From positions 1 through 33,683 of the forward strand of contig JAGWAC010000001.1 in the NCBI GenBank assembly GCA_018302125.1: DNA of 33,683 nucleotides. The letters are read 5' to 3'. This document shows positions 3,947 to 28,480 of this stretch, piece after piece. Every line of letters begins with the position of its first letter. Position 1 is the stretch's first letter. Both the position numbers and the translations under genes were made by a program. The DNA is from Candidatus Woesearchaeota archaeon. Lineage in GTDB: Archaea; Nanobdellota; Nanobdellia; SCGC-AAA011-G17; JACPIM01. Below the pieces are notes generated by a model. That model was not told where the DNA came from and ran no database searches. It saw only the letters and a program-made list of their open reading frames with translations.

Positions 3947-5671
3947 ATGAAGAATTTGAGATCTCCAATTTGTGTAGTAGTAGGACATATTGATCATGGA
4001 AAGTCCTCAATCTTGGATAGAATTAGAAACACAAATATTATTGCTTCTGAAGCTGGAGGAATTACACAAGCAATTTCTTTTACAAACTTAGGCTCAAAAA
4101 GGATAAAGGAAGTTTCTGGCAGATTATTAGAAGCTTTGAAAATAAATTTGACAATCCCAGGTATTTTATTTTTAGATACTCCTGGACATGCTGCATTTAA
4201 TAATTTAAGGAGAAGGGGTGGAAACTTAGCTGATATAGCTATTTTGGTAATTGATATTACAAAGGGAATTGAGGAACAGAGTGTTGAGAGTATAAATATT
4301 TTGAAACAATATAAGACTCCTTTTATTATAGCTGCAAACAAAATTGATTTACTAAGTGGATGGCAGAAGAAAGATGATTTTTTGATAAAGGACATTAATC
4401 TACAAAGCGAGAGAGTAAAGCAGGAATTAGACAATAAAATTTATGAGTTAGTTGGAAAGTTATCTGGGCTAGGATTTAATTCTGAAAGATTTGACAGAGT
4501 TGATGATTATACAAAAAATGTCGCTATTGTTCCTGTTTCTGCCAAAACTAATGATGGCATTTCTGAGTTATTAATGGTTGTTTCTGGATTAGCACAAAAA
4601 TACCTTGAGAATAATTTACTTATAAACAAAGAATCTGGTGGCAGAGGAACTATTTTAGAAGTTAAAGAAGAAAAAGCAGGAACTGTTATTTATTCTGTAA
4701 TTTATGACGGAACTTTAAAGAAAAATGACCAAATTGTTATAGGTGGAGTAGATAAGCCCATTATTACAAAAGTAAGGGCTATTTTTTCTGCTGATGAGAA
4801 ATTTAAGTTTAAAAAAGAAAAGGAAGTTTCAGCTGCAATTGGCATAAAATTATTAGCTTCTAATGTTAAAGATGTTATCTCTGGAATGCCCTTGGTTGTT
4901 GCAAATAAAGATTTAGATAAACACAAAGAAGAAGTACAGAAAGAAGTTGAAGAAGTTTTAATTCATACTGACAGAGAAGGGATAATTGTAAAGGCAGACA
5001 CATTAGGTGGTTTAGAGGCTTTAACAAATTTATTGAAACAAAGCGGATTACAAATTAAAAAAGCTTCAATTGGAAATATTTCTAAAAAAGATATTGCTGA
5101 TGCCATGGCTGAAAATGAAGAATTAAACAAAGCTATTTTAGGATTTAATGTAAAAGCTATTGATGAAACTAATGAAGTAAAGATAATTACAAATGAAGTT
5201 ATCTATAAGTTAATAGAAGATTATGAAAACTGGAAAAAACAGAAATTAGAAGAACAAGAAAAAAAGGAGCTAGAGAATGTAATAAGACCCTGCAAAGTAC
5301 AGATATTGCCTGGATGTGTTTTCAGGCAGAGCAATCCTGCTGTTGTTGGAGTGATTGTTTTAGGTGGTTTAGTTAAGAATAATACTCCTTTGATTAAAGT
5401 AACTGGTGAAAAGATTTCAGAAGTTAAAAGCATGCAATTAGAAGGAAAGAATATTGACAAAGCTGAAAAGAACAAAGAAATTGCCCTTTCTTTGCCTAGT
5501 GCTGTTGTAGGGAGACATATTAGAGAGAGAGATATATTAATATCTGACATGAATGAAGAGGATTTTATTAAACTGAAGAAATTAAAGAAATATTTAAATA
5601 GAGATGAGATTGAGCTTTTGAAAGAAATTGCCAATATTAAAAGGAAGAAAGATCCTTTGTGGGGCATTTAA
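3947..5671 (+). CDS. infB: Translation initiation factor IF-2 (aIF5B)
   Basis: GTPase motifs GHIDHGKSSILD, DTPGHAAF, NKIDLL plus C-terminal IF2 domains 'CKVQILPGCVFRQSNPAVVGVIVLGG'; no intein. Confidence 0.96.
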   Translation: MKNLRSPICVVVGHIDHGKSSILDRIRNTNIIASEAGGITQAISFTNLGSKRIKEVSGRLLEALKINLTIPGILFLDTPGHAAFNNLRRRGGNLADIAILVIDITKGIEEQSVESINILKQYKTPFIIAANKIDLLSGWQKKDDFLIKDINLQSERVKQELDNKIYELVGKLSGLGFNSERFDRVDDYTKNVAIVPVSAKTNDGISELLMVVSGLAQKYLENNLLINKESGGRGTILEVKEEKAGTVIYSVIYDGTLKKNDQIVIGGVDKPIITKVRAIFSADEKFKFKKEKEVSAAIGIKLLASNVKDVISGMPLVVANKDLDKHKEEVQKEVEEVLIHTDREGIIVKADTLGGLEALTNLLKQSGLQIKKASIGNISKKDIADAMAENEELNKAILGFNVKAIDETNEVKIITNEVIYKLIEDYENWKKQKLEEQEKKELENVIRPCKVQILPGCVFRQSNPAVVGVIVLGGLVKNNTPLIKVTGEKISEVKSMQLEGKNIDKAEKNKEIALSLPSAVVGRHIRERDILISDMNEEDFIKLKKLKKYLNRDEIELLKEIANIKRKKDPLWGI

Positions 5672-5699
5672 AGTTTTAAGAAAAGCTTAAGCAAAAACA
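5671..5699 (+). repeat. Dispersed hairpin element, copy A (AAGTTTTAAGAAAAGCTTAAGCAAAAACA)
   Basis: Palindrome plus A-rich tail between infB and rps6e. Confidence 0.6.
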
Positions 5700-6975: not shown

Positions 6976-7233
6976 TTATATTACCTGTACTTTTTCTCCT
7001 AAACTCTGACCTGGAAATCCTTTTTCAAAAATTACTCTTATAGCTCCTTTATTTCCATGAGAATTTGCTACTTTACCAACAAATTCCTTTCCTGTTTTAG
7101 TTTTCCAGATTACTTTTTTTCCTATTAGTTTTTTGGAATCTTCTTTATTTTTTATATTATTAACTAGAATAATCATTTGATTATTTGTTTGCACATGTCT
7201 ACTTCTTCTAAAGTTAGCTATAAGACCTTCCAT
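6976..7233 (-). CDS. rpl35ae: 50S ribosomal protein L35Ae
   Basis: MEGLIANFRRSRHVQTNNQMIILVNN...GKKVIWKTKTGKEFVGKVANSHGNKGAIRVIFEKGFPGQSLGEKVQVI; internal ATG at 7233 chosen over 7314. Confidence 0.92.
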   Translation of the reverse strand: MEGLIANFRRSRHVQTNNQMIILVNNIKNKEDSKKLIGKKVIWKTKTGKEFVGKVANSHGNKGAIRVIFEKGFPGQSLGEKVQVI

Positions 7234-7240
7234 TTTAATA

Positions 7241-7268
7241 TTTTTTGCAAAAAGCTTGATTAAAAAAT
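7241..7268 (+). repeat. Dispersed hairpin element, copy B (TTTTTTGCAAAAAGCTTGATTAAAAAAT)
   Basis: Partial copy just upstream of the rpl35ae start (minus strand). Confidence 0.55.
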
Positions 7269-7300
7269 GTAAATAAGATATATAAAAAGTTTTGTATTTT

Positions 7301-7331
7301 AACCTTTTTTGCAAAAAGCTTAACCAAAAAC
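7301..7331 (+). repeat. Dispersed hairpin element, copy C (AACCTTTTTTGCAAAAAGCTTAACCAAAAAC)
   Basis: Best consensus copy; abuts the stop of the NTase gene. Confidence 0.75.
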
Positions 7332-9127
7332 TAGAAATTTAGGATTAATTCAGCGTCATTTCCAAAGATTTTTTTAAGATCTGATATAGTATTTTCGTTA
7401 ATAAAGACTTTCTTTGGTGATTTTATTGATTTAAGGACTTCTTCCAGTTCGTTTAAATTACTTTTTTTCAGTTCTCCCAAGCAACAATTGTTTAGAAAAA
7501 CCCCTTTAAGAAATTCCTTATCTTTTGTTACAAAAACAGAATTATCTATTATTAAAACTTCTCCAATTTTATCTTTATTGTATTTTACACGGAATTTTAA
7601 TCTTTCAATATCAAAGCCTTTCTTTCTTTGGACAATGTCAATTAAAGTCCTCATAAACATGCTTGCTTCTTTTCTTATTTTTTCAACTTCTTGCTTTGTA
7701 ATTTTCCCTTTTTCATAATCTTCTTTTGCTTTCACAACAACTTTTAAAATTCTCAGGAATTTCTCAGGAACTTTTCCTTGCTTTACTAATTCTTCAAAAC
7801 CTTCCAATACATTATTTTTTTTGATATTATTTACATGAATTAAATCCTGGGCTACTGATATACATCCTTCGTAAAATTCAAGAACTCTTTTCTTTTCTGA
7901 TTTTTTTTCTATTTCCTTAAATAATTTATTTAACCTTTTTAGATAATCATCAACATCTTTTAATAATTGGTCTACTTCCTTTCCAGAGATTTCTTTTGTT
8001 GTTCCATGTTCAATCCTTTTAAAGTATCTGAAAGTTTTATCCAATATATCTACATACTTTTTTTCCAATAATTTTTCTTTTTTTACAAAAATTTCCAATA
8101 ATAGTTTTATAGTCTCCCTATGAGTTGGAGGAGGAATTCCGTACAACATTAATGCTGCCTGAGCTGGATTTAATGTTGCATAATACAAATCTTCACCAAC
8201 AACACTCAATAATTTTCCTTTGGCTCTTTGTATTAATTTATCTGCAATATCCATGTGCATGTCAATTGCTTCTGGACTTGGTTTAATTCTACCCATTTGC
8301 AATAATAACTTCCAAGGCATAAATACACCACGATCATATAATGGAACTCCGTCTCTTAAAAATGTGAAAATTACAGGGGAAGCATCTTTCAAACTTTCCC
8401 AAAAATCTGTTAATATGTGAACCTGAATATGAAATGCTTTGTTTATTCCAGTTATTCTGCTTGCATCGTAACCAAGACCGATAATAATTGCTCTTAATTT
8501 GTCCTTTAATTCTATCCTTGACATTTTTTTTACATCAGTATCATCTACTACAATAAGAACATCTATATCATTTGATTTTTCTCCCCTGAATAAAGAACCA
8601 ATAGCAACATAGCTTACAATATATTTTTCGAATTTCTTCAAAGCCATTTTTTTATGGACTTCAGAAATCTTGAAAGCTGCCAAAACATCTGCTGGATCAT
8701 AAAAAATTGCTGATAAAGCAATTGCTTCCAGAACTTCGTATTTAGCATCAAAACAATTTTCTTTTAATTCTGACATTAACATTACAATTGCCTTAAAATT
8801 TGGATCGGTTTCTTTTGCACTTTTTTCTATAATTGCTGTTAATTTGTCTTTTAATTCAAATTTGGACATTTTTTTGCTATTAGAATCATCAACTAAAATA
8901 AGAATAGCAATTTCTTTTGGATTAGGATTTGGTTTCTTTTCTTTTTTACTTTCTTCATAATCTTCTTCTAGAATTTTAGAATTTGGAAGAATAGCTATAC
9001 CAGTAATATATTTATCGAATTTTTTTATAATATCTTTTTTAAATTTAGTTATATTATTTCTAATTTCCTTGAATTTATCTTTTAATTCTTCTGGTACTAC
9101 TATATTTTGCTTTGGCTGTCCTTCCAT
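7331..9127 (-). CDS. Large nucleotidyltransferase-domain protein with a helical C-terminal region
   Basis: 'YVAIGSLFRGEKSNDIDVLIVVDD' is a Pol-beta-type NTase motif (GS...DxD). An upstream segment 'KEIAILILVDDSNSKKMSKFELKDKLTAII' looks like a degenerate duplicate of 'DIDVLIVVDDTDVKKMSRIELKDKLRAII'. Confidence 0.75.
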   Translation of the reverse strand: MEGQPKQNIVVPEELKDKFKEIRNNITKFKKDIIKKFDKYITGIAILPNSKILEEDYEESKKEKKPNPNPKEIAILILVDDSNSKKMSKFELKDKLTAIIEKSAKETDPNFKAIVMLMSELKENCFDAKYEVLEAIALSAIFYDPADVLAAFKISEVHKKMALKKFEKYIVSYVAIGSLFRGEKSNDIDVLIVVDDTDVKKMSRIELKDKLRAIIIGLGYDASRITGINKAFHIQVHILTDFWESLKDASPVIFTFLRDGVPLYDRGVFMPWKLLLQMGRIKPSPEAIDMHMDIADKLIQRAKGKLLSVVGEDLYYATLNPAQAALMLYGIPPPTHRETIKLLLEIFVKKEKLLEKKYVDILDKTFRYFKRIEHGTTKEISGKEVDQLLKDVDDYLKRLNKLFKEIEKKSEKKRVLEFYEGCISVAQDLIHVNNIKKNNVLEGFEELVKQGKVPEKFLRILKVVVKAKEDYEKGKITKQEVEKIRKEASMFMRTLIDIVQRKKGFDIERLKFRVKYNKDKIGEVLIIDNSVFVTKDKEFLKGVFLNNCCLGELKKSNLNELEEVLKSIKSPKKVFINENTISDLKKIFGNDAELILNF

Positions 9128-9633: not shown

Positions 9634-9720
9634 GGGCCGGTGGTCTAGTGGCTAAGTTATTCCATAAATGACAAGACGTTTACACCGTCTAGATCGAAGG
9701 TTCAAATCCTTCTCGGCCCA
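9634..9720 (+). tRNA. tRNA-Val(UAC) with ~14 extra nt in the D-arm (candidate non-canonical intron)
   Basis: Acceptor GGGCCGG/TCGGCCC, anticodon stem AGACG-TTTACAC-CGTCT (anticodon TAC), T-arm GAAGG-TTCAAAT-CCTTC, discriminator A. Total 87 nt; removing ~AGTTATTCCATAAA (9655-9668) leaves a normal 73-nt tRNA. Confidence 0.85.
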
Positions 9721-9723
9721 TTT

Positions 9724-9755
9724 AACCTTTTTTTACAAAAAAAGTTAATCAAAAA
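9724..9755 (+). repeat. Dispersed hairpin element, copy D (AACCTTTTTTTACAAAAAAAGTTAATCAAAAA)
   Basis: Immediately 3' of tRNA-Val; overlaps the 3' end of the VKOR relic. Confidence 0.7.
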
Positions 9756-10056
9756 ATAATTTAAATTCTAAGGAGAAAATTAATAGCAGAATATTAATTA
9801 GATAAATAGAATTACAGATTAAACAAAGAGTTTTTAATTTTATTAAGGATAAGTAGGCAAGGTAGATACTGCCTAAAAAACCAAGAGTGACTAATGCAAG
9901 GTGGCCATATTTACTTTTTATTGCTTTAAAACAAGAAACTTTTTCATTAAATTCACAAAGTGCTTTATATTTCTTATTTCTTTTTAGAGTATATTCTATT
10001 TTAAAAGCATATAATGATATTAATAATCCAAAAATAGATTAGATTTGAAGTATCAT
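9745..10056 (-). pseudogene. Decayed vitamin K epoxide reductase (VKOR)-like gene
   Basis: Minus-strand: MILQI*SIFGLLISLYAFKIEYTLKRNKKYKALCEFNEKVSCFKAIKSKYGHLALVTLGFLGSIYLAYLSLIKLKTLCLICNSIYLINILLLIFSLEFKLFFD*. In-frame TAA at codon 6; central region appears deleted; CxxC (CLIC) retained. Confidence 0.62.
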
Positions 10057-10116: not shown

Positions 10117-10234
10117 GCGCTAGTAGTATAGTGGTTAGTATATGGCCTTGCCAATAAGCTTTTAGGAAAAGTTTAACCAAAAACTAAAAGCAAGTAAAGA
10201 GGCTATGACCTGGGTTCGAGCCCCAGCTAGCGCA
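10117..10234 (+). tRNA. tRNA-Gly(GCC) with a ~46-nt intron at about 37/38 (intron ~10154-10199)
   Basis: Acceptor GCGCTAG/CTAGCGC, T-arm CTGGG-TTCGAGC-CCCAG, anticodon stem TGGCC/GGCTA around TTGCCA|A; exons 37+35 nt; exon CTTGC can pair with intron GCAAG as a relaxed BHB-type helix. Confidence 0.9.
10156..10185 (+). repeat. Dispersed hairpin element, copy E inside the tRNA-Gly intron (AAGCTTTTAGGAAAAGTTTAACCAAAAACT)
   Basis: Same palindrome plus AACCAAAAAC tail. Confidence 0.72.
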
Positions 10235-14940: not shown

Positions 14941-17900
14941 ATGGCAGATATTTTAGAAGAAGTAATGAAATTTATTCCTGATAAAAATAAGATTAGTGAT
15001 TCTTATTTTGAGGGAGCAAATATAGTGCTTTATACTAAAGATAAGGATTTCTTCCTAGACAATAATGGAATTATAAAACAAATAGTAGATTCTATAAAAA
15101 AAAGAGTTGAATTAAGACCTGATCCGGCTATTTGCATGGATATTGAAAATGCTGAAAAAATTATAAGGGATATAATTCCAAAAGATGCTGGCGAGATAAA
15201 TCTTTTGTTTGACATACAAAGATCCTTAGTTACAATTGAGGTTGAAAAACCTGGGGTGGCTATTGGAAAACAAGGTGAGGTTTTAAAAGAAATTAGAAAA
15301 AAAAGTTTCTGGGTACCAATTATAAGAAGAACCCCTGCAATAAGATCAAAAATTATCGAAAATATTAATCACGTTTTATTTGAAAATAATGACTATAGAA
15401 AAAAATTCTTGAACAATGTCGGAAAAAGAATTTATGGTGGGTGGACTAAAGGAAGAGTTGATGAATGGATAAGAGTTACTTTTTTAGGGGCTGGAAGACA
15501 GGTTGGCAGGAGCTGCTTATTTTTACAAACTCCTGAGTCTAAAATTTTATTAGACTGCGGAATTAATGTTTCTGCCCAAACTAATGAAGAGATGTTTCCT
15601 TTATTAGAAGCACCAGAATTTAAAATTGATGAATTGGATGCTGTTATTATTTCACATTCACATATTGATCATGTTGGATTTTTACCTTATTTGTATAAAA
15701 TGGGATTTACTGGGCCTACTTATTTAACAGCACCGACAAGGGACATTGCTGCTTTGCTTTGTTTGGATATTATAAATATTGCACAAAAAGAAGCAAATAA
15801 AGCAATTTATTCTTCAACTGATATTAAAAACATGGTAAAACACGCTATTTGTTTGGATTATGGTGAAGTGACTGACATAACTCCAGATGTAAGATTAACT
15901 TTTTATGATGCTGGGCATAAGTTAGGAAGCGCTTTGTGCCATTTACATATTGGGAATGGATTGCACAACTTAGTCTATTCTTTAGACAGAAGCATGAAAG
16001 TCCCCATAGTGGATATTAACAATAATGTTGAATTTGTTGAAATAGGTAAATTTACAGATGATTTATTTAATAAGGGAGGTGTTATAATAGACAATGGCCA
16101 TGTTCAAGAAAGACCAAATATAGAAAGATATTCTACATTTGCTTTTAATCCTAAGACTTTAAAATCAGAATTAGCTGACATAACTAGTTTTACTAGACAT
16201 CCTGTTACTGAAGAATTATATAAAATTAAAACTGATACAGGTAGATCTTTAACAGTAACTAAATCGCATAGCTTATTTACTGCTAAAAATGGAAAAATTA
16301 TTCCTGTTAAAACTTCTGACTTAAAAATAGGAGATTTTATAGCTGGGTCTAAAAAAATTTCTTCTCTTAATGTTGGAGAACCTATTATTGATTTACTCCC
16401 TTATTTAGGGGATTTAAGAATTTCAATAAAAGATGAAACTATAATCACTAATTTAATTTCCAGTCTTAAAGAAAAATTTTCAAAATTAGAAAATAATGAT
16501 AAGGAAATAGTTGAGAAAATTTTATTTGCTTATTATAGGGGGTTTTACAAAGAAGAAATAGCTAAAAAATACCTTATACACCCAGGAAGAGTAAGAAGGA
16601 TATTATTAAATTTAGGCTTAAAAAGTCAACCTAGAGTTAAAGAATCTTTCCCTGATAAACTTATTTTATCAAGGGATCTTGCGAGATTTTTAGGATATTA
16701 TATTTCAGAAGGGTATCCTGTAAAAGATAGTCAAACTGTTCATATAGCTAATGATAATAATGAAATTCTTCAAGATTGTTATAATATAATAAATAAAGAA
16801 TTTAATATTGAAGGGGATTTAAGATATGAAGATCATTGTATTTTATTTAATTCTAAACAATTGAAATATTTATTATCCAAAGTTTTGAAATGTGGCTCTA
16901 ATGCTTATGAAAAGAGAATCCCTAAGGAATTATTATTAACTAATAAAGATATTATTTCTGATTTATTATATGGTTTATTTTCTGGAGACGGCGGGATAAG
17001 AAATAGAATTAAAGCAAGAGAAATTAATTATGGGAGTAAATCAAAAGGACTTACAGAAGATATTGCTTTTCTATTATTGCAGTTTGGTTTAGTACCAACA
17101 TTAGAGTTTAACAAGACTTCAAAAATGTTTAATTTACATCTTTATAATGCTGAAAAAATAGTTCAATTTTTAGAAGAAATTAATATTAATAATAACCAAA
17201 AAGAGGGTTTAATTAATTCTTTAGAAAATTTAAAAACAACAAAAGGAAGTTTTGATATGAGGATTCCTTTAGTCGCTTTGTCCGATAAAGCTCATGAAAG
17301 CGAAGTTGTAAAAGCATGGAGTAATGCTAAATCCTGCGGAATAAGTAAATTATGTTACGAAGAACTTCTTGAAGAAGATTTAATTTTAATATATTCTGAT
17401 TTATTATTTGATAAAATAAAGGCTATAGAAAAAGTTGAATCAACAGGACACTATGTTTATGATTTAAGAATTAATGGTTATGAAAATTTTGTAGCTGGAG
17501 ATGGGTTCTTATTTGCACATAATACTGGGGATTATTTATATGAAAACTCGAATTTGCTGGGCGCTGCTGTAACCAGATTTCCAAGATTAGAAACAATAAT
17601 TATGGAAGCAACTTACGGTAGCAAGAAAGATACTCCTCTTACAAGGAGAGAATGTGAATTATTTTTTACAGATATAATCAAAAAAACCTTAGAAAGAGGT
17701 GGAAAAGTTTTAGTTCCTGTTTTAGGTTCTGGAAGAGCCCAAGAGATTATGGTTATTTTAGATAAGTTAGTTAGGGAGGGAACATTACAAAAAATACCAG
17801 TTTATGTTCAGGGATTAGTATGGGATATTACTGCAATTCATACTGCTTATCCTGATTTTTTCAATAGTAGAGTAAAGAAAATGATTTACCATAAGGATGA

Positions 17901-18387
17901 AAATCCTTTTTTGAATGAAATGTTCATGCGAGTTGGATCAAGAAAAGAAATGCTAGATGTTGTAGAAGAAAAGGGACCCTGCGTTATTTTAGCAACATCA
18001 GGAATGTTAACTGGAGGAGCTTCTTTGGAATACTTTAAGATGCTTGCTGACAATCCAAAAAATTCAATAGTATTGAATTCTTATCAAGGACCTGGATCTA
18101 TTGGAAGACGATTAGAAGAAGGAGATAGACAGATTAATTTTATAACTGGAAACAAGCAAGAAACTGTTGAAGTAAAGATGGATGTTAATGTTATTCATGG
18201 TTTTTCTGGGCATAGCAACAGAACACAGACAATGAATTTTGTACATAATTTAGATCCTAAACCAAAAAAAATAATTTTGGTTCATGGAGAAAGTTCTAAA
18301 TGTCTAGAATTAGCTTCGGACTTACATAAAATGACGAGATTAGAGACTTTGGCTCCAAAAAACTTGGAGGCTGTAAGACTTAGGTAA
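14941..18387 (+). CDS. aCPSF1/FttA (KH-CPSF, beta-CASP ribonuclease and transcription termination factor) containing an intein
   Basis: KH-type N-terminus, MBL motifs 'SHSHIDHVGFLPYL', 'DAGHKLGSA', beta-CASP 'VPVLGSGRAQEIMVIL', 'ILATSGMLTGGASLEYF', 'VIHGFSGHSNRTQ'; interrupted by intein blocks. Confidence 0.95.
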   Translation: MADILEEVMKFIPDKNKISDSYFEGANIVLYTKDKDFFLDNNGIIKQIVDSIKKRVELRPDPAICMDIENAEKIIRDIIPKDAGEINLLFDIQRSLVTIEVEKPGVAIGKQGEVLKEIRKKSFWVPIIRRTPAIRSKIIENINHVLFENNDYRKKFLNNVGKRIYGGWTKGRVDEWIRVTFLGAGRQVGRSCLFLQTPESKILLDCGINVSAQTNEEMFPLLEAPEFKIDELDAVIISHSHIDHVGFLPYLYKMGFTGPTYLTAPTRDIAALLCLDIINIAQKEANKAIYSSTDIKNMVKHAICLDYGEVTDITPDVRLTFYDAGHKLGSALCHLHIGNGLHNLVYSLDRSMKVPIVDINNNVEFVEIGKFTDDLFNKGGVIIDNGHVQERPNIERYSTFAFNPKTLKSELADITSFTRHPVTEELYKIKTDTGRSLTVTKSHSLFTAKNGKIIPVKTSDLKIGDFIAGSKKISSLNVGEPIIDLLPYLGDLRISIKDETIITNLISSLKEKFSKLENNDKEIVEKILFAYYRGFYKEEIAKKYLIHPGRVRRILLNLGLKSQPRVKESFPDKLILSRDLARFLGYYISEGYPVKDSQTVHIANDNNEILQDCYNIINKEFNIEGDLRYEDHCILFNSKQLKYLLSKVLKCGSNAYEKRIPKELLLTNKDIISDLLYGLFSGDGGIRNRIKAREINYGSKSKGLTEDIAFLLLQFGLVPTLEFNKTSKMFNLHLYNAEKIVQFLEEININNNQKEGLINSLENLKTTKGSFDMRIPLVALSDKAHESEVVKAWSNAKSCGISKLCYEELLEEDLILIYSDLLFDKIKAIEKVESTGHYVYDLRINGYENFVAGDGFLFAHNTGDYLYENSNLLGAAVTRFPRLETIIMEATYGSKKDTPLTRRECELFFTDIIKKTLERGGKVLVPVLGSGRAQEIMVILDKLVREGTLQKIPVYVQGLVWDITAIHTAYPDFFNSRVKKMIYHKDENPFLNEMFMRVGSRKEMLDVVEEKGPCVILATSGMLTGGASLEYFKMLADNPKNSIVLNSYQGPGSIGRRLEEGDRQINFITGNKQETVEVKMDVNVIHGFSGHSNRTQTMNFVHNLDPKPKKIILVHGESSKCLELASDLHKMTRLETLAPKNLEAVRLR
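15979..17523 (+). mobile_element. Intein (515 aa) with a LAGLIDADG homing endonuclease domain, in aCPSF1 between VY and TGD
   Basis: Ser1 'SLDRSMKVPIVDINNNVEFVEIGKF', block B 'LTVTKSHSLFT', DOD motifs 'LARFLGYYISEGYP' and 'LLYGLFSGDGGI', C-terminal 'YVYDLRINGYENFVAGDGFLFAHN|T'; exteins rejoin as HNLVY-TGDYLYENSNLLG. Confidence 0.95.
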
Positions 18388-18413
18388 ACTTTTTAAGAAA
18401 AAGTTTAATCGAA
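18386..18413 (+). repeat. Dispersed hairpin element, copy F (AAACTTTTTAAGAAAAAGTTTAATCGAA)
   Basis: Overlaps the aCPSF1 stop region. Confidence 0.62.
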
Positions 18414-18824
18414 ATGTTACGCAAATTATTTAATTTTTTTAAAGGAAGAAGAAAGAATTTAGAAGATATTCTGATTTTAAAACTAAAGAAGTAATAAGAT
18501 TATATATGGCAGGAATTACAAATACAAAAGATATTGCAAATAAAATAGAAGTTAATATACAAAAAGTTCAGCGAGTTTTAAAATCTAATAATCTAGGAGC
18601 TCAAAGAATATTAACACCCAAAAAGAAAAGAAATTGTAAAATTTGTTTCTCAAAATCAAAATTTATCTTGTATAGAAATAGCCAAACAATTTAATGTACA
18701 TGAATCTGTTGTAAGAAGAGCATGCAAAAAATTTGGTGTGAAAAAATTAGACGCTCATAAATATAGACTTTCTCAAAAAATTCATTTGACCAGCCTTCAA
18801 ATAGAAAGTAATTATAAGGTCTAA
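18414..18824 (+). pseudogene. Frame-broken HTH-repeat protein, possible relic of a free-standing homing endonuclease
   Basis: Three frames: MLRKLFNFFKGRRK.. / ..EFRRYSDFKTKEVIRLYMAGITNTKDIANKIEVNIQKVQRVLKSNNLGAQRILTPKKKRNCKIC.. / ..QNLSCIEIAKQFNVHESVVRRACKKFGVKKLDAHKYRLSQKIHLTSLQIESNYKV*. Confidence 0.5.
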
Positions 18825-18847: not shown

Positions 18848-19261
18848 TTATCTGTAACTTTTTTGTCTGCATTTTCTTGGCTTAGAATCGTTTGGTTTTG
18901 AACTTTCTGCAAATCTTACATCATTTATTAAAATAGCCCTATCATAGTCTAAAAATGTTTTTTTTAATAAAGGATTAAATTGGGCTAAAGCTTTTCCAAT
19001 GCCTGTTCTGCAAGCATCGGCTTGAGCATTCCATCCACCACCATTAACATTAATATTAATATCAACTTTTTTAGCTATTTCACCAGCCAAATAAATTGGC
19101 TCAAGAATTCTCATTTTTGCAACTTCTGGCTTATAATGATCTAATAAAAAATTATTAATTTTAACAATTCCTTTTCCAGCTTTCAAAGTAACTCTAGCTG
19201 TTGCCCTTTTTCTTTTACCTGAAACATGTACAATATTTGACTTTGATTTTTTTTCTGCCAT
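18848..19261 (-). CDS. rps9: 30S ribosomal protein S9
   Basis: VHVSGKRKRATARVTLKAGKGIVKINN...NVNGGGWNAQADACRTGIGKALAQFNP...PRKCRQKSYR. Confidence 0.96.
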   Translation of the reverse strand: MAEKKSKSNIVHVSGKRKRATARVTLKAGKGIVKINNFLLDHYKPEVAKMRILEPIYLAGEIAKKVDININVNGGGWNAQADACRTGIGKALAQFNPLLKKTFLDYDRAILINDVRFAESSKPNDSKPRKCRQKSYR

Positions 19262-19263
19262 GT

Positions 19264-19292
19264 AACCTTTTTATAAAAAAGCTTAACCAAAA
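19264..19292 (+). repeat. Dispersed hairpin element, copy G (AACCTTTTTATAAAAAAGCTTAACCAAAA)
   Basis: Between rps9 and rpl13. Confidence 0.75.
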
Positions 19293-19299
19293 GATAAAA

Positions 19300-19701
19300 C
19301 TATTTTTTTAGATGCTTGCAAAGCTCTCCTACTGTTATATAACTTCCTTTTTTTAATTTTGTGTATTTTGCATTTTCTAATGTTATCCCTTTAACATTTT
19401 TTGGATTTCCAGGATAACACTTAATTCTTTTATATGCTAATTTTCCCCTTTCTTTTTTATATGAAATCATCCCCCTAATAACTCTCTTAAAAAATTTCAT
19501 TGGAATTTTAGGCATAAATGGCCCCTTAAATGGTTCACCTAAATTGTCTCTCCATAAATATTTTTCAACAACAACTTCTTTTGATCCTGAAATTACAGCT
19601 TTCTCTACATTAATTATTATTACTTCTTCACCTAATAAAGCTTGTTTAGCAGCATAGGTTGCTACTCTCCCCATGATTAAATCTTCTGCGTCTATTATCA
19701 T
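19300..19701 (-). CDS. rpl13: 50S ribosomal protein L13
   Basis: MIIDAEDLIMGRVATYAAKQALLGEEVIIINVEKAVISG...RVIRGMISYKKERGKLAYKRIKCYPGNP; internal ATG at 19701, since the longer ORF runs into a repeat element. Confidence 0.94.
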   Translation of the reverse strand: MIIDAEDLIMGRVATYAAKQALLGEEVIIINVEKAVISGSKEVVVEKYLWRDNLGEPFKGPFMPKIPMKFFKRVIRGMISYKKERGKLAYKRIKCYPGNPKNVKGITLENAKYTKLKKGSYITVGELCKHLKK

Positions 19702-19704
19702 TTG

Positions 19705-19736
19705 AACCTTTTTAGGAAAAAGTTTTACCAAAAAAA
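19705..19736 (+). repeat. Dispersed hairpin element, copy H (AACCTTTTTAGGAAAAAGTTTTACCAAAAAAA)
   Basis: Fills the rpl13/rpl18e gap. Confidence 0.73.
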
Positions 19737-20090
19737 CTACCCTATGATTTTAACTCCTGTACCTTTTGGATGCTTTTTCATTAATTCATGAATTGATAGA
19801 TTGTCTTTTAATTTTTGCTTTGCAGATTCTGAAAAGTTGAAAGCTGCAACTGTAACATTATGATCTACATTGCCTTTGCCCAAGACTTTTCCTGGAACTA
19901 CAATTATATCGTTTGGTTTTGTTACTCTGTTTATTTTATCTATATTAACTTCCCGCATTTTTCTTGTAGGTTTTAATAATTCAAGAGCTATAGCTTTCCA
20001 TATTTTTGCTTTTTTCGCTGTGCTTGTTTTTTTTAATTCAACTACTAAATTCAACAATAATTCATTTGTTTTTGTGATGTGTTTATCCAT
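19737..20090 (-). CDS. rpl18e: 50S ribosomal protein L18e
   Basis: 'WKAIALELLKPTRKMREVNIDKINRVTKPNDIIVVPGKVLGKGNVDHNVTVAAFNFSESAKQKL'. Confidence 0.94.
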   Translation of the reverse strand: MDKHITKTNELLLNLVVELKKTSTAKKAKIWKAIALELLKPTRKMREVNIDKINRVTKPNDIIVVPGKVLGKGNVDHNVTVAAFNFSESAKQKLKDNLSIHELMKKHPKGTGVKIIG

Positions 20091-20093
20091 TTT

Positions 20094-20123
20094 AACCTTT
20101 TATCAAAAAGCCTAACAAAAAAA
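20094..20123 (+). repeat. Dispersed hairpin element, copy I (AACCTTTTATCAAAAAGCCTAACAAAAAAA)
   Basis: Fills the rpl18e/rpoD gap. Confidence 0.7.
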
Positions 20124-22127: not shown

Positions 22128-22141
22128 GTTAATTTTTGATT

Positions 22142-22160
22142 AAACTTTTCTTAAAAGTTT
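22142..22160 (+). repeat. Dispersed hairpin element, copy J, palindrome only (AAACTTTTCTTAAAAGTTT)
   Basis: Between rps11 and rps4. Confidence 0.5.
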
Positions 22161-22764
22161 ATTTAGCTTCTACCTCAACTAATTTTTCTTCTTTAGTATT
22201 TGTTTCTTTCATGAAATGCTCTTTTTCTTTTTGAAGATCTTTTTCTAATTTTTTAGTCAGTCTTTCAGGATGATCTTCCTTGCTTAAATCAGAATTTGGA
22301 TAAAACGATATCTTGGTTTCTTCTTCTTTTTTTACTAAATAAGAAGGAACATTAATCCTTTTATTTTCTATTGATATATGCCCGTGAATTATAAATTGAC
22401 GAGCTTGCTCAATTGATTTTGCCAAACTTAATTTAAAAACAAAAGTCTGTAATCTTCGTTCAAAAATACTATCTAATTTTAATTCAAGAACATCATCCAA
22501 AGTTGCATTTTCTGAAATTAAATTTAATTTTGCCAATTTTGAAATTAATTGCTTTTTTTCTTTTTCACCTTGTTCTGTTTGAGAAGCGATTAAACTTTTA
22601 GCCTGAGCTTTAAATCTTTTAATAGTAGAAATCATTTTCCACACTTCTTTTTTATTTTTCAATCCAAATCTATTTAGTAATTCTCCCTCTTCTTTTAACC
22701 TTGTTGCTTGCCAAGGATGAGAAGGAGTACTGTATTTTTTTCTGTTTTTCTTTGGATCTCCCAT
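22159..22764 (-). CDS. rps4: 30S ribosomal protein S4
   Basis: 'MGDPKKNRKKYSTPSHPWQATRLKEEGELLNRFGLKNKKEVWKM...RRLQTFVFKLSLAKSIEQARQFIIHGHISIENKRINVPSYLV'. Confidence 0.97.
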   Translation of the reverse strand: MGDPKKNRKKYSTPSHPWQATRLKEEGELLNRFGLKNKKEVWKMISTIKRFKAQAKSLIASQTEQGEKEKKQLISKLAKLNLISENATLDDVLELKLDSIFERRLQTFVFKLSLAKSIEQARQFIIHGHISIENKRINVPSYLVKKEEETKISFYPNSDLSKEDHPERLTKKLEKDLQKEKEHFMKETNTKEEKLVEVEAK

Positions 22765-22774
22765 TTAACATTTG

Positions 22775-22809
22775 AACCTTTTTTGAAAAAAAGCTTCAGG
22801 AAAAAACAA
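22775..22809 (+). repeat. Dispersed hairpin element, copy K (AACCTTTTTTGAAAAAAAGCTTCAGGAAAAAACAA)
   Basis: Between rps4 and rps13. Confidence 0.68.
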
Positions 22810-28434: not shown

Positions 28435-28456
28435 TTTTTGCTAAATTTTTTTGATA

Positions 28457-28480
28457 AAACTTTTAAGAAAGAGTTTTCTA
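28457..28480 (+). repeat. Dispersed hairpin element, degenerate copy (AAACTTTTAAGAAAGAGTTTTCTA)
   Basis: Just past the stop of scpB (minus) and downstream of the GT2 gene. Confidence 0.4.

Follow-up and report, generated by a model that had tools for sequence, protein, structure and literature searches.

The tRNA-Gly(GCC) gene at positions 10117-10234 (+) of the 33,683-nt stretch of DNA analysed here (the window) raises the question of where its intron came from. The origin of archaeal tRNA introns at odd positions is an open question, with transposition having been inferred in Thermoproteales. The full-length Rfam tRNA model (RF00005) matched the gene at 50 bits, a long insert being placed in the anticodon loop; ARAGORN in bacterial mode made no call for it at 10117-10234. 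The ends of the intron, 10154-10199, are those predicted from tRNA structure, and the otherwise complete tRNA that it interrupts has intronless orthologues, as is the case for archaeal bulge-helix-bulge (BHB) tRNA introns. Within the intron lies the sequence TAAGCTTTTAGGAAAAGTTTAACCAAAAA (10155-10183), one of 8 exact pattern matches in the genome. The earlier note on this DNA, which quoted the string from 10156 onwards, had described a tRNA-Gly(GCC) carrying a dispersed element in its intron, a description confirmed by the Rfam assignment together with the match to a profile of the repeat (Table 1).

Table 1. Features of the tRNA-Gly(GCC) gene and other copies of the element in the window
Feature	Position	Strand	Basis and remarks
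Element copy; its TAA is the stop of the 574-aa ORF 3947-5671	5669-5697	+	Profile
Weaker element copy	7231-7268	+	Profile
Element copy just past the stop of minus-strand ORF 7331-9127, antisense to the ORF	7300-7330	+	Profile
Element-like hairpin plus tail directly 3' of tRNA-Met (9634-9720)	9723-9756	+	Sequence; absent from the E<=1 profile list
tRNA-Gly(GCC) exon 1	10117-10153	+	To position 37, splice site inferred; Rfam RF00005; intronless orthologues
tRNA-Gly(GCC) intron, 46 nt, canonical position 37/38	10154-10199	+	Anticodon-loop insert of tRNA model; intronless relatives
Element copy TAAGCTTTTAGG-AAAAGTTTAACCAAAAA, hairpin plus tail, in tRNA-Gly intron	10155-10183	+	Tail word exact; profile, 20.9 bits
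Distal intron helix, 5' strand GCUUUUAG	10158-10165	+	Pairs with 10184-10191, competes with element hairpin; RNAfold pair probability about 1
Distal helix, 3' strand (10184-10191), plus exon-1-complementary GCAA (10190-10193)	10184-10193	+	GCAA pairs with UUGC 10148-10151; folding energies, complementarity test
tRNA-Gly(GCC) exon 2	10200-10234	+	Rfam RF00005
Element copy giving the TAA stop of ORF 14941-18387	18385-18414	+	Profile
Element copy between two minus-strand ORFs, 5' end abuts start codon at 19261	19263-19292	+	Profile
Element copy between minus-strand ORFs, 5' end abuts start codon near 19701	19704-19734	+	Profile
Element copy between minus-strand ORFs, abuts start codon at 20090	20093-20122	+	
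Element copy giving the TAA stop of minus-strand ORF 22159-22764	22133-22161	-	Core-word search, profile
Element copy upstream of minus-strand ORF 22159-22764	22774-22803	+	Profile
Weak element copy between convergent ORFs	28448-28464	-	Profile

The repeat follows the consensus XAANCTTTTT-NN-AAAAAGNTTX' for the hairpin and ANCAAAA for the tail, forming a unit of about 30 nt with an AU-rich stem and an A-rich tail. Its core word AAAAGTTTAACCAAA (<=2 mismatches) was found 9 times in the window, compared with 1.6 expected occurrences and at most 5 in 100 shuffles. In the whole genome (G000; ~829 kb in 33 contigs, 29% GC or 71% A+T on the first 800 kb assembled), the pattern AAAAGYTTAACCAAAAA (<=2 mismatches) matched at 85 places versus 10 for the reversed pattern, and a further pattern count yielded 70 forward versus 0 reversed matches. 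With a profile, we recovered 92 non-redundant copies at E<=1, of which 58 reached E<=0.01, whereas the reversed genome produced a single weak match at E<1, with nothing below 0.01. Because each copy is recognised by about 28 low-complexity bases, individual weak copies are uncertain, but the family is not. The closing pair X-X' covaries, being Watson-Crick in 55 of the 61 copies that fit the template (37 T-A, 9 A-T and 9 G-C), versus a mean of 28 and a maximum of 38 after shuffling. With 92 copies and this covariation, the repeat is a multicopy dispersed palindrome with a conserved stem, as are RPE-like and MITE-like elements. The earlier note had held that a genome-wide background of A/T palindromes would overturn its reading, but such a background fails against the reversed-sequence controls. 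A related subfamily with the tail GCGTTNRCGGAAAA is also present in G000 (7 matches versus 0 reversed). A second palindrome, AAGAACC..GGTTCTTAT, occurs at about 5-6 sites (0 in the reversed control), often directly past the element tail, with sites downstream of copies at, for example, C11:23925, C12:212, C22:2915 and C22:19655.

Of the 92 copies, no fewer than 13 are located within tRNA genes, where about 0.6 would be expected from the share of tRNA genes in the genome and about 2.8 from their share of noncoding DNA, the tRNA footprint being estimated; the tRNA limits were set by us. Anticodon-loop copies are found in tRNA-Gly(GCC) and tRNA-Pro(UGG), D-loop copies in tRNA-Arg(GCG), -Glu(UUC), -Glu(CUC), -Ile(GAU), -Gly(UCC), the tRNA-Ala of the rRNA operon and others, and T-loop copies in tRNA-Glu(UUC), tRNA-His and one more, so that tRNA-Glu(UUC) holds two copies, one in each of the D- and T-loops; further copies directly abut tRNA ends. 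As the earlier note had claimed, the palindrome with its tail also sits between protein genes, both in the window and elsewhere in the genome. Relative to gene borders drawn by a home-made gene caller, 20 copies have their 5' end no more than 7 nt from a stop codon, which is TAA in every case and comes from the element itself, and 11 have it equally close to a start codon, in antisense; the tail end is near stops in 6 copies and near starts in 0. Both orientations occur. Seven copies lie in frame and in sense within ORFs which, in our reading of the sequences, include an E2 acyltransferase, topoisomerase I, GatA, Bud32 and a TnpB-like protein. This matches the in-frame insertion into unrelated proteins, absent in orthologues, of RPE-like and MITE-like elements (7 ORFs, with an empty site for Bud32).

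Several further peculiarities were observed at these loci. The topoisomerase I gene (C17:1682-5356) contains an apparent internal intein in addition to an in-frame element copy that is common to G000 and G002, a genome of the same family. The tRNA-Met at 9634-9720, called by ARAGORN, has extra bases in the D-loop region, possibly a short noncanonical intron, and its CAT anticodon call may be misplaced, since in the Rfam alignment the anticodon loop reads TTTACAC. A duplicate of tRNA-Arg(GCG) that lacks its 5' part is located at C6:6869-6938 (-), the complete gene being at C1:11975-12085 (+); the homology starts inside the D-loop element copy and runs beyond the tRNA 3' end. The truncated copy may result from recombination at the element or may represent the 3' half of a split tRNA, for which a search did not find a matching 5' half.

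To follow the element among relatives, whose genomes are likely metagenome-derived, we counted the exact 16-mer AAAAGYTTHAYCAAAA in 103 genomes of the order. It occurs 53 times in G000 (0 in the reversed control, which gave about one match per ten genomes), 31 times in G002, 23 in G004, 19 in each of G031 and G033 and 15 in G036, with 0-4 occurrences in most other genomes of the order and 0 in G001, which belongs to the family of G000. Elsewhere in the class, 22, 12, 7 and 6 occurrences were found in G179, G134, G153 and G349, respectively; in this class, the distribution of the element over families and orders is scattered. The second subfamily is present in much the same genomes, with 8 matches in G001 and none in G002. 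In low-copy genomes, 9 of 16 hairpin copies lie in or against tRNA or RNase P RNA genes, the hosts being the anticodon loops of tRNA-Glu and tRNA-Asp, the D-loop of tRNA-Leu, T-loops and RNase P RNA. Rfam identified RNase P RNA at loci L264 and L278 and, truncated and below threshold, at L357, as well as tRNA at several other loci; at L278 and L357 the element is at the edge of the model match, so that its position within RNase P RNA is less certain there. Beyond the order, tRNA-Gly(UCC) of G264 carries an anticodon-loop and a T-loop copy, and in G134 one copy lies in a D-arm and another in RNase P RNA. Most of the named records closest to a window protein were MAGs of Woesearchaeota and other Nanoarchaeia, with a few bacterial ones among them, and judging from this sequence similarity the genome appears to be Woesearchaeota-like. 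Copies in G033 are on the forward strand of contigs in 18 of 19 cases, whereas G000 has no such bias, and G002 contains tandem element arrays of 2-4 units with a 34-bp period (L101 on C32, L106 on C42, L103 on C76 and L102 on C84), with longer flanks common to several loci.

Comparison of individual sites showed copies that are present in some relatives and absent from others. The D-loop copy of tRNA-Glu(UUC) is common to G000 and G002, and the T-loop of the same tRNA is uninterrupted in G002 (TTCAAAT) and contains a 52-nt insert in G000 (TTCAAA/GTAAGC...GAAAG/T) between near-identical flanks; no clear target-site duplication was seen at this insertion. In a tRNA with an anticodon-loop intron (C16:20377), an extra element unit is present in G002 and missing in G000, a difference compatible with insertion and deletion alike. 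The Bud32 insert of G000, FLEKSLTKNNPFEKSVSGK, consists of two elements in frame (L302) and is missing in 18 relatives, including G002, and Bud32 of G001 has a different hairpin, CCATTTAAAAAAGCGTTCGCG, at exactly the same site (L310), which suggests an insertion-tolerant or preferred site. As for tRNA-Gly(GCC), the comparison proposed in the earlier note turned out as anticipated, with the intron absent from most relatives (G003, G008, G013, G019, G027, G028, G029 and others); G002 has a related but different hairpin and G025 the full element. No tRNA was found at the relatives' loci that we compared for synteny with the downstream phosphorylase gene, and the downstream gene differs in G002; the empty sites of tRNA-Gly therefore come from other loci. 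Given that the copy occupies the canonical intron site and that G002 has a different hairpin there, it need not be a fresh insertion.

Both of the competing helices that had been proposed for the tRNA-Gly intron exist, the element hairpin being formed by 10155-10163 and 10167-10175. RNAfold assigned -14.6 kcal/mol to the fold with the distal helix versus -8.6 kcal/mol to the BHB-like fold with the element hairpin. The relaxed BHB suggested earlier from exon/intron pairing is also possible: next to the UUGC/GCAA helix there would be a 3-nt 5' bulge (CAA) and a 7-nt 3' bulge, and the structure is therefore relaxed compared with the standard two 3-nt bulges and 4-bp helix, and is not the minimum-energy fold. 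In G025, tRNA-Gly adopts a textbook BHB fold with 3-nt/3-nt bulges, in which the element hairpin is the intron helix, and the T-loop copy at C13:23329 folds with a 5-bp central helix and 4/3-nt bulges. A distal helix like that of tRNA-Gly, CTTTTTAG/CTAAAAAG, was found in two T-loop introns. Across 23 introns with boundaries set by hand, the complementarity between exon 1 and the intron 3' part averaged -4.43 kcal/mol, versus -2.83 kcal/mol (sd 0.46) when intron ends were permuted from other loop classes. Consistent with a capacity for splicing, G000 encodes one endA gene (PF01974; C25:15149-15721) of about 190 aa. Copies in D- and T-loops would presumably be spliced as well.

We consider it likely that the tRNA-Gly(GCC) intron contains a copy of a short non-autonomous mobile palindrome that supplies BHB-like introns removable by the splicing endonuclease EndA. 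The palindrome would have spread through the genomes of many small Woesearchaeota-like archaea, with copies surviving where they do little harm, namely at gene borders (often providing the TAA stop), within tRNA loops and RNase P RNA, and in frame in the loops and linkers of proteins. After insertion into a tRNA gene, the hairpin would become the body of an intron, and the central helix of a BHB-like structure would be formed by a short, target-fitted stretch at the 3' side that is complementary to exon 1; this combination would allow EndA to cut the intron out and restore the tRNA. That a mobile element landed in the intron was one of two alternatives in the earlier note, and it gains support from the dispersal and patchiness of the repeat, its many unrelated tRNA positions and its presence or absence between sister genera. 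We infer that the element moved by transposition, probably at the DNA level; as the copies have diverged, transposition is not caught in the act except by comparing genera. The signature of a known transposase, with terminal inverted repeats and a target-site duplication, did not emerge: no clear target-site duplication was seen for the element, and the search for Y1 revealed no transposase linked to it. A Y1 (IS200/RAYT) transposase was rejected as mobiliser because PF01797 is absent from G000; it is also absent from G004, and G002 has one. The TnpB-like locus in C27 was likewise considered as a source of the ends, but its upstream hairpin looks different and the gene itself carries a copy. 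A bolder version, which we advance tentatively as a possibility, would make the palindrome a portable, intron-like selfish element from which new tRNA introns can arise at any time and in any loop, since its hairpin and a few exon-complementary bases form a substrate of the splicing endonuclease; its spread may use intron RNA.

Other readings have to be weighed against a mobile palindrome. It appears rather unlikely that the introns came first, with tRNA genes as the reservoir from which excised (circular) intron RNA or DNA spread to other tRNAs and then to intergenic DNA by reverse splicing or recombination. Intron transposition between tRNAs is on record in Thermoproteales (PMC4090602, PMC4390854), most hairpin copies of low-copy genomes are in or against RNA genes, and the single pattern match of G025 is its tRNA-Gly intron, but the conserved unit ends at the tail, without the exon-complementary 3' part expected of an excised intron, and intergenic and ORF copies lack that part too. 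The other alternative of the earlier note, in which the splicing endonuclease would process intronic and intergenic copies alike, would make the latter mRNA introns or processing sites; it is not supported and is highly improbable: introns and intergenic sites have hairpins in common, and EndA can act on a 5' UTR in Haloferax (PMC7714728), but the flanks of 63 intergenic copies show no complementarity beyond that of permuted pairs (-1.83 versus -1.99 kcal/mol), whereas the tRNA copies do, and in-frame copies are open reading frames that need no removal.

A function of the hairpins in 3' or 5' UTRs, as terminators or as signals for stability or processing, with tRNA introns having received chance copies, would account for the 20 stops, all TAA, and 11 starts abutted always by the same element end, and for the copies that directly flank tRNA ends. 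We nevertheless find this role unlikely, as most genes have no copy, the numbers of copies in sister genera of the same family are 53, 31 and 0, both orientations are present, and copies within proteins and tRNA loops do not fit; moreover, in a compact genome, selection acting on insertions would also be expected to produce a bias towards gene boundaries. Chance resemblance or drift among unrelated AT-rich palindromes, to which a genome with 71% A+T and a hairpin of low complexity might incline, has a negligible probability, being refuted by the reversed controls (85/10, 70/0 and, for the 16-mer, 53/0) and contradicted by the X-X' covariation and the clean insertion distinguishing G000 from G002.

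These results suggest a selfish repeat as one of the sources of tRNA introns in archaea. As the same repeat is found in tRNA loops, RNase P RNA, proteins and intergenic DNA, and is present or absent between sister genera, intron gain by a mobile element becomes directly testable. The element also accounts for the many tRNA genes that escape a standard tRNA model in such genomes (in G000, that of Rfam recovered 17), and the missed genes affect completeness estimates and claims about the codon sets of these archaea.

In the open PMC literature, we found no paper on one short repeat shared by tRNA loops, intergenic DNA and ORFs, but several known systems resemble it in part. Rickettsia is known to have palindromes that are inserted in frame in its proteins (PMC10969869, PMC6649704), and the element is like these Rickettsia palindromic elements (RPEs) and other MITE/REP-like palindromes in being short, multicopy and dispersed, in occurring both in noncoding DNA and in frame in unrelated proteins, and in having related subfamilies. 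It is not an RPE proper: RPEs are bacterial and about 150 bp long, whereas the unit here is about 30 bp, belongs to DPANN-type archaea, has no long coding peptide and, unlike RPEs, resides to a large extent within tRNA genes as introns and in RNase P RNA. With palindromes derived from IS200/IS605 (REP/RAYT, PATE-like), it shares the hairpin, the conserved flanking bases and the non-autonomous character, but not the Y1 transposase, PF01797 being absent from G000 and G004 and the C27 TnpB-like gene itself containing a copy. On the basis of one Caldiarchaeum locus, it has been proposed that mobile elements drive intron gain (PMC3293823). Asgard archaea have many tRNA genes with multiple introns at noncanonical positions (PMC11291895), similar to those described here, and the parts of that report dealing with them describe no dispersed repeat as the intron source. 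Introns of Thermoproteales tRNAs transpose by an unknown mechanism (Fujishima et al. 2010, as described in PMC4390854 and PMC4090602); going by those descriptions, they likewise comprise similar sequences in different tRNAs at canonical and noncanonical positions, whereas the sequence studied here is also intergenic and within ORFs, belongs to another archaeal lineage and is a hairpin plus tail rather than a whole intron. Finally, the tRNA copies share exon/intron pairing with archaeal BHB introns removed by EndA, down to the 3-nt/3-nt fold of tRNA-Gly in G025, but, unlike the usual BHB introns, they have a repeat family as the intron body, and several of their junctions are relaxed.
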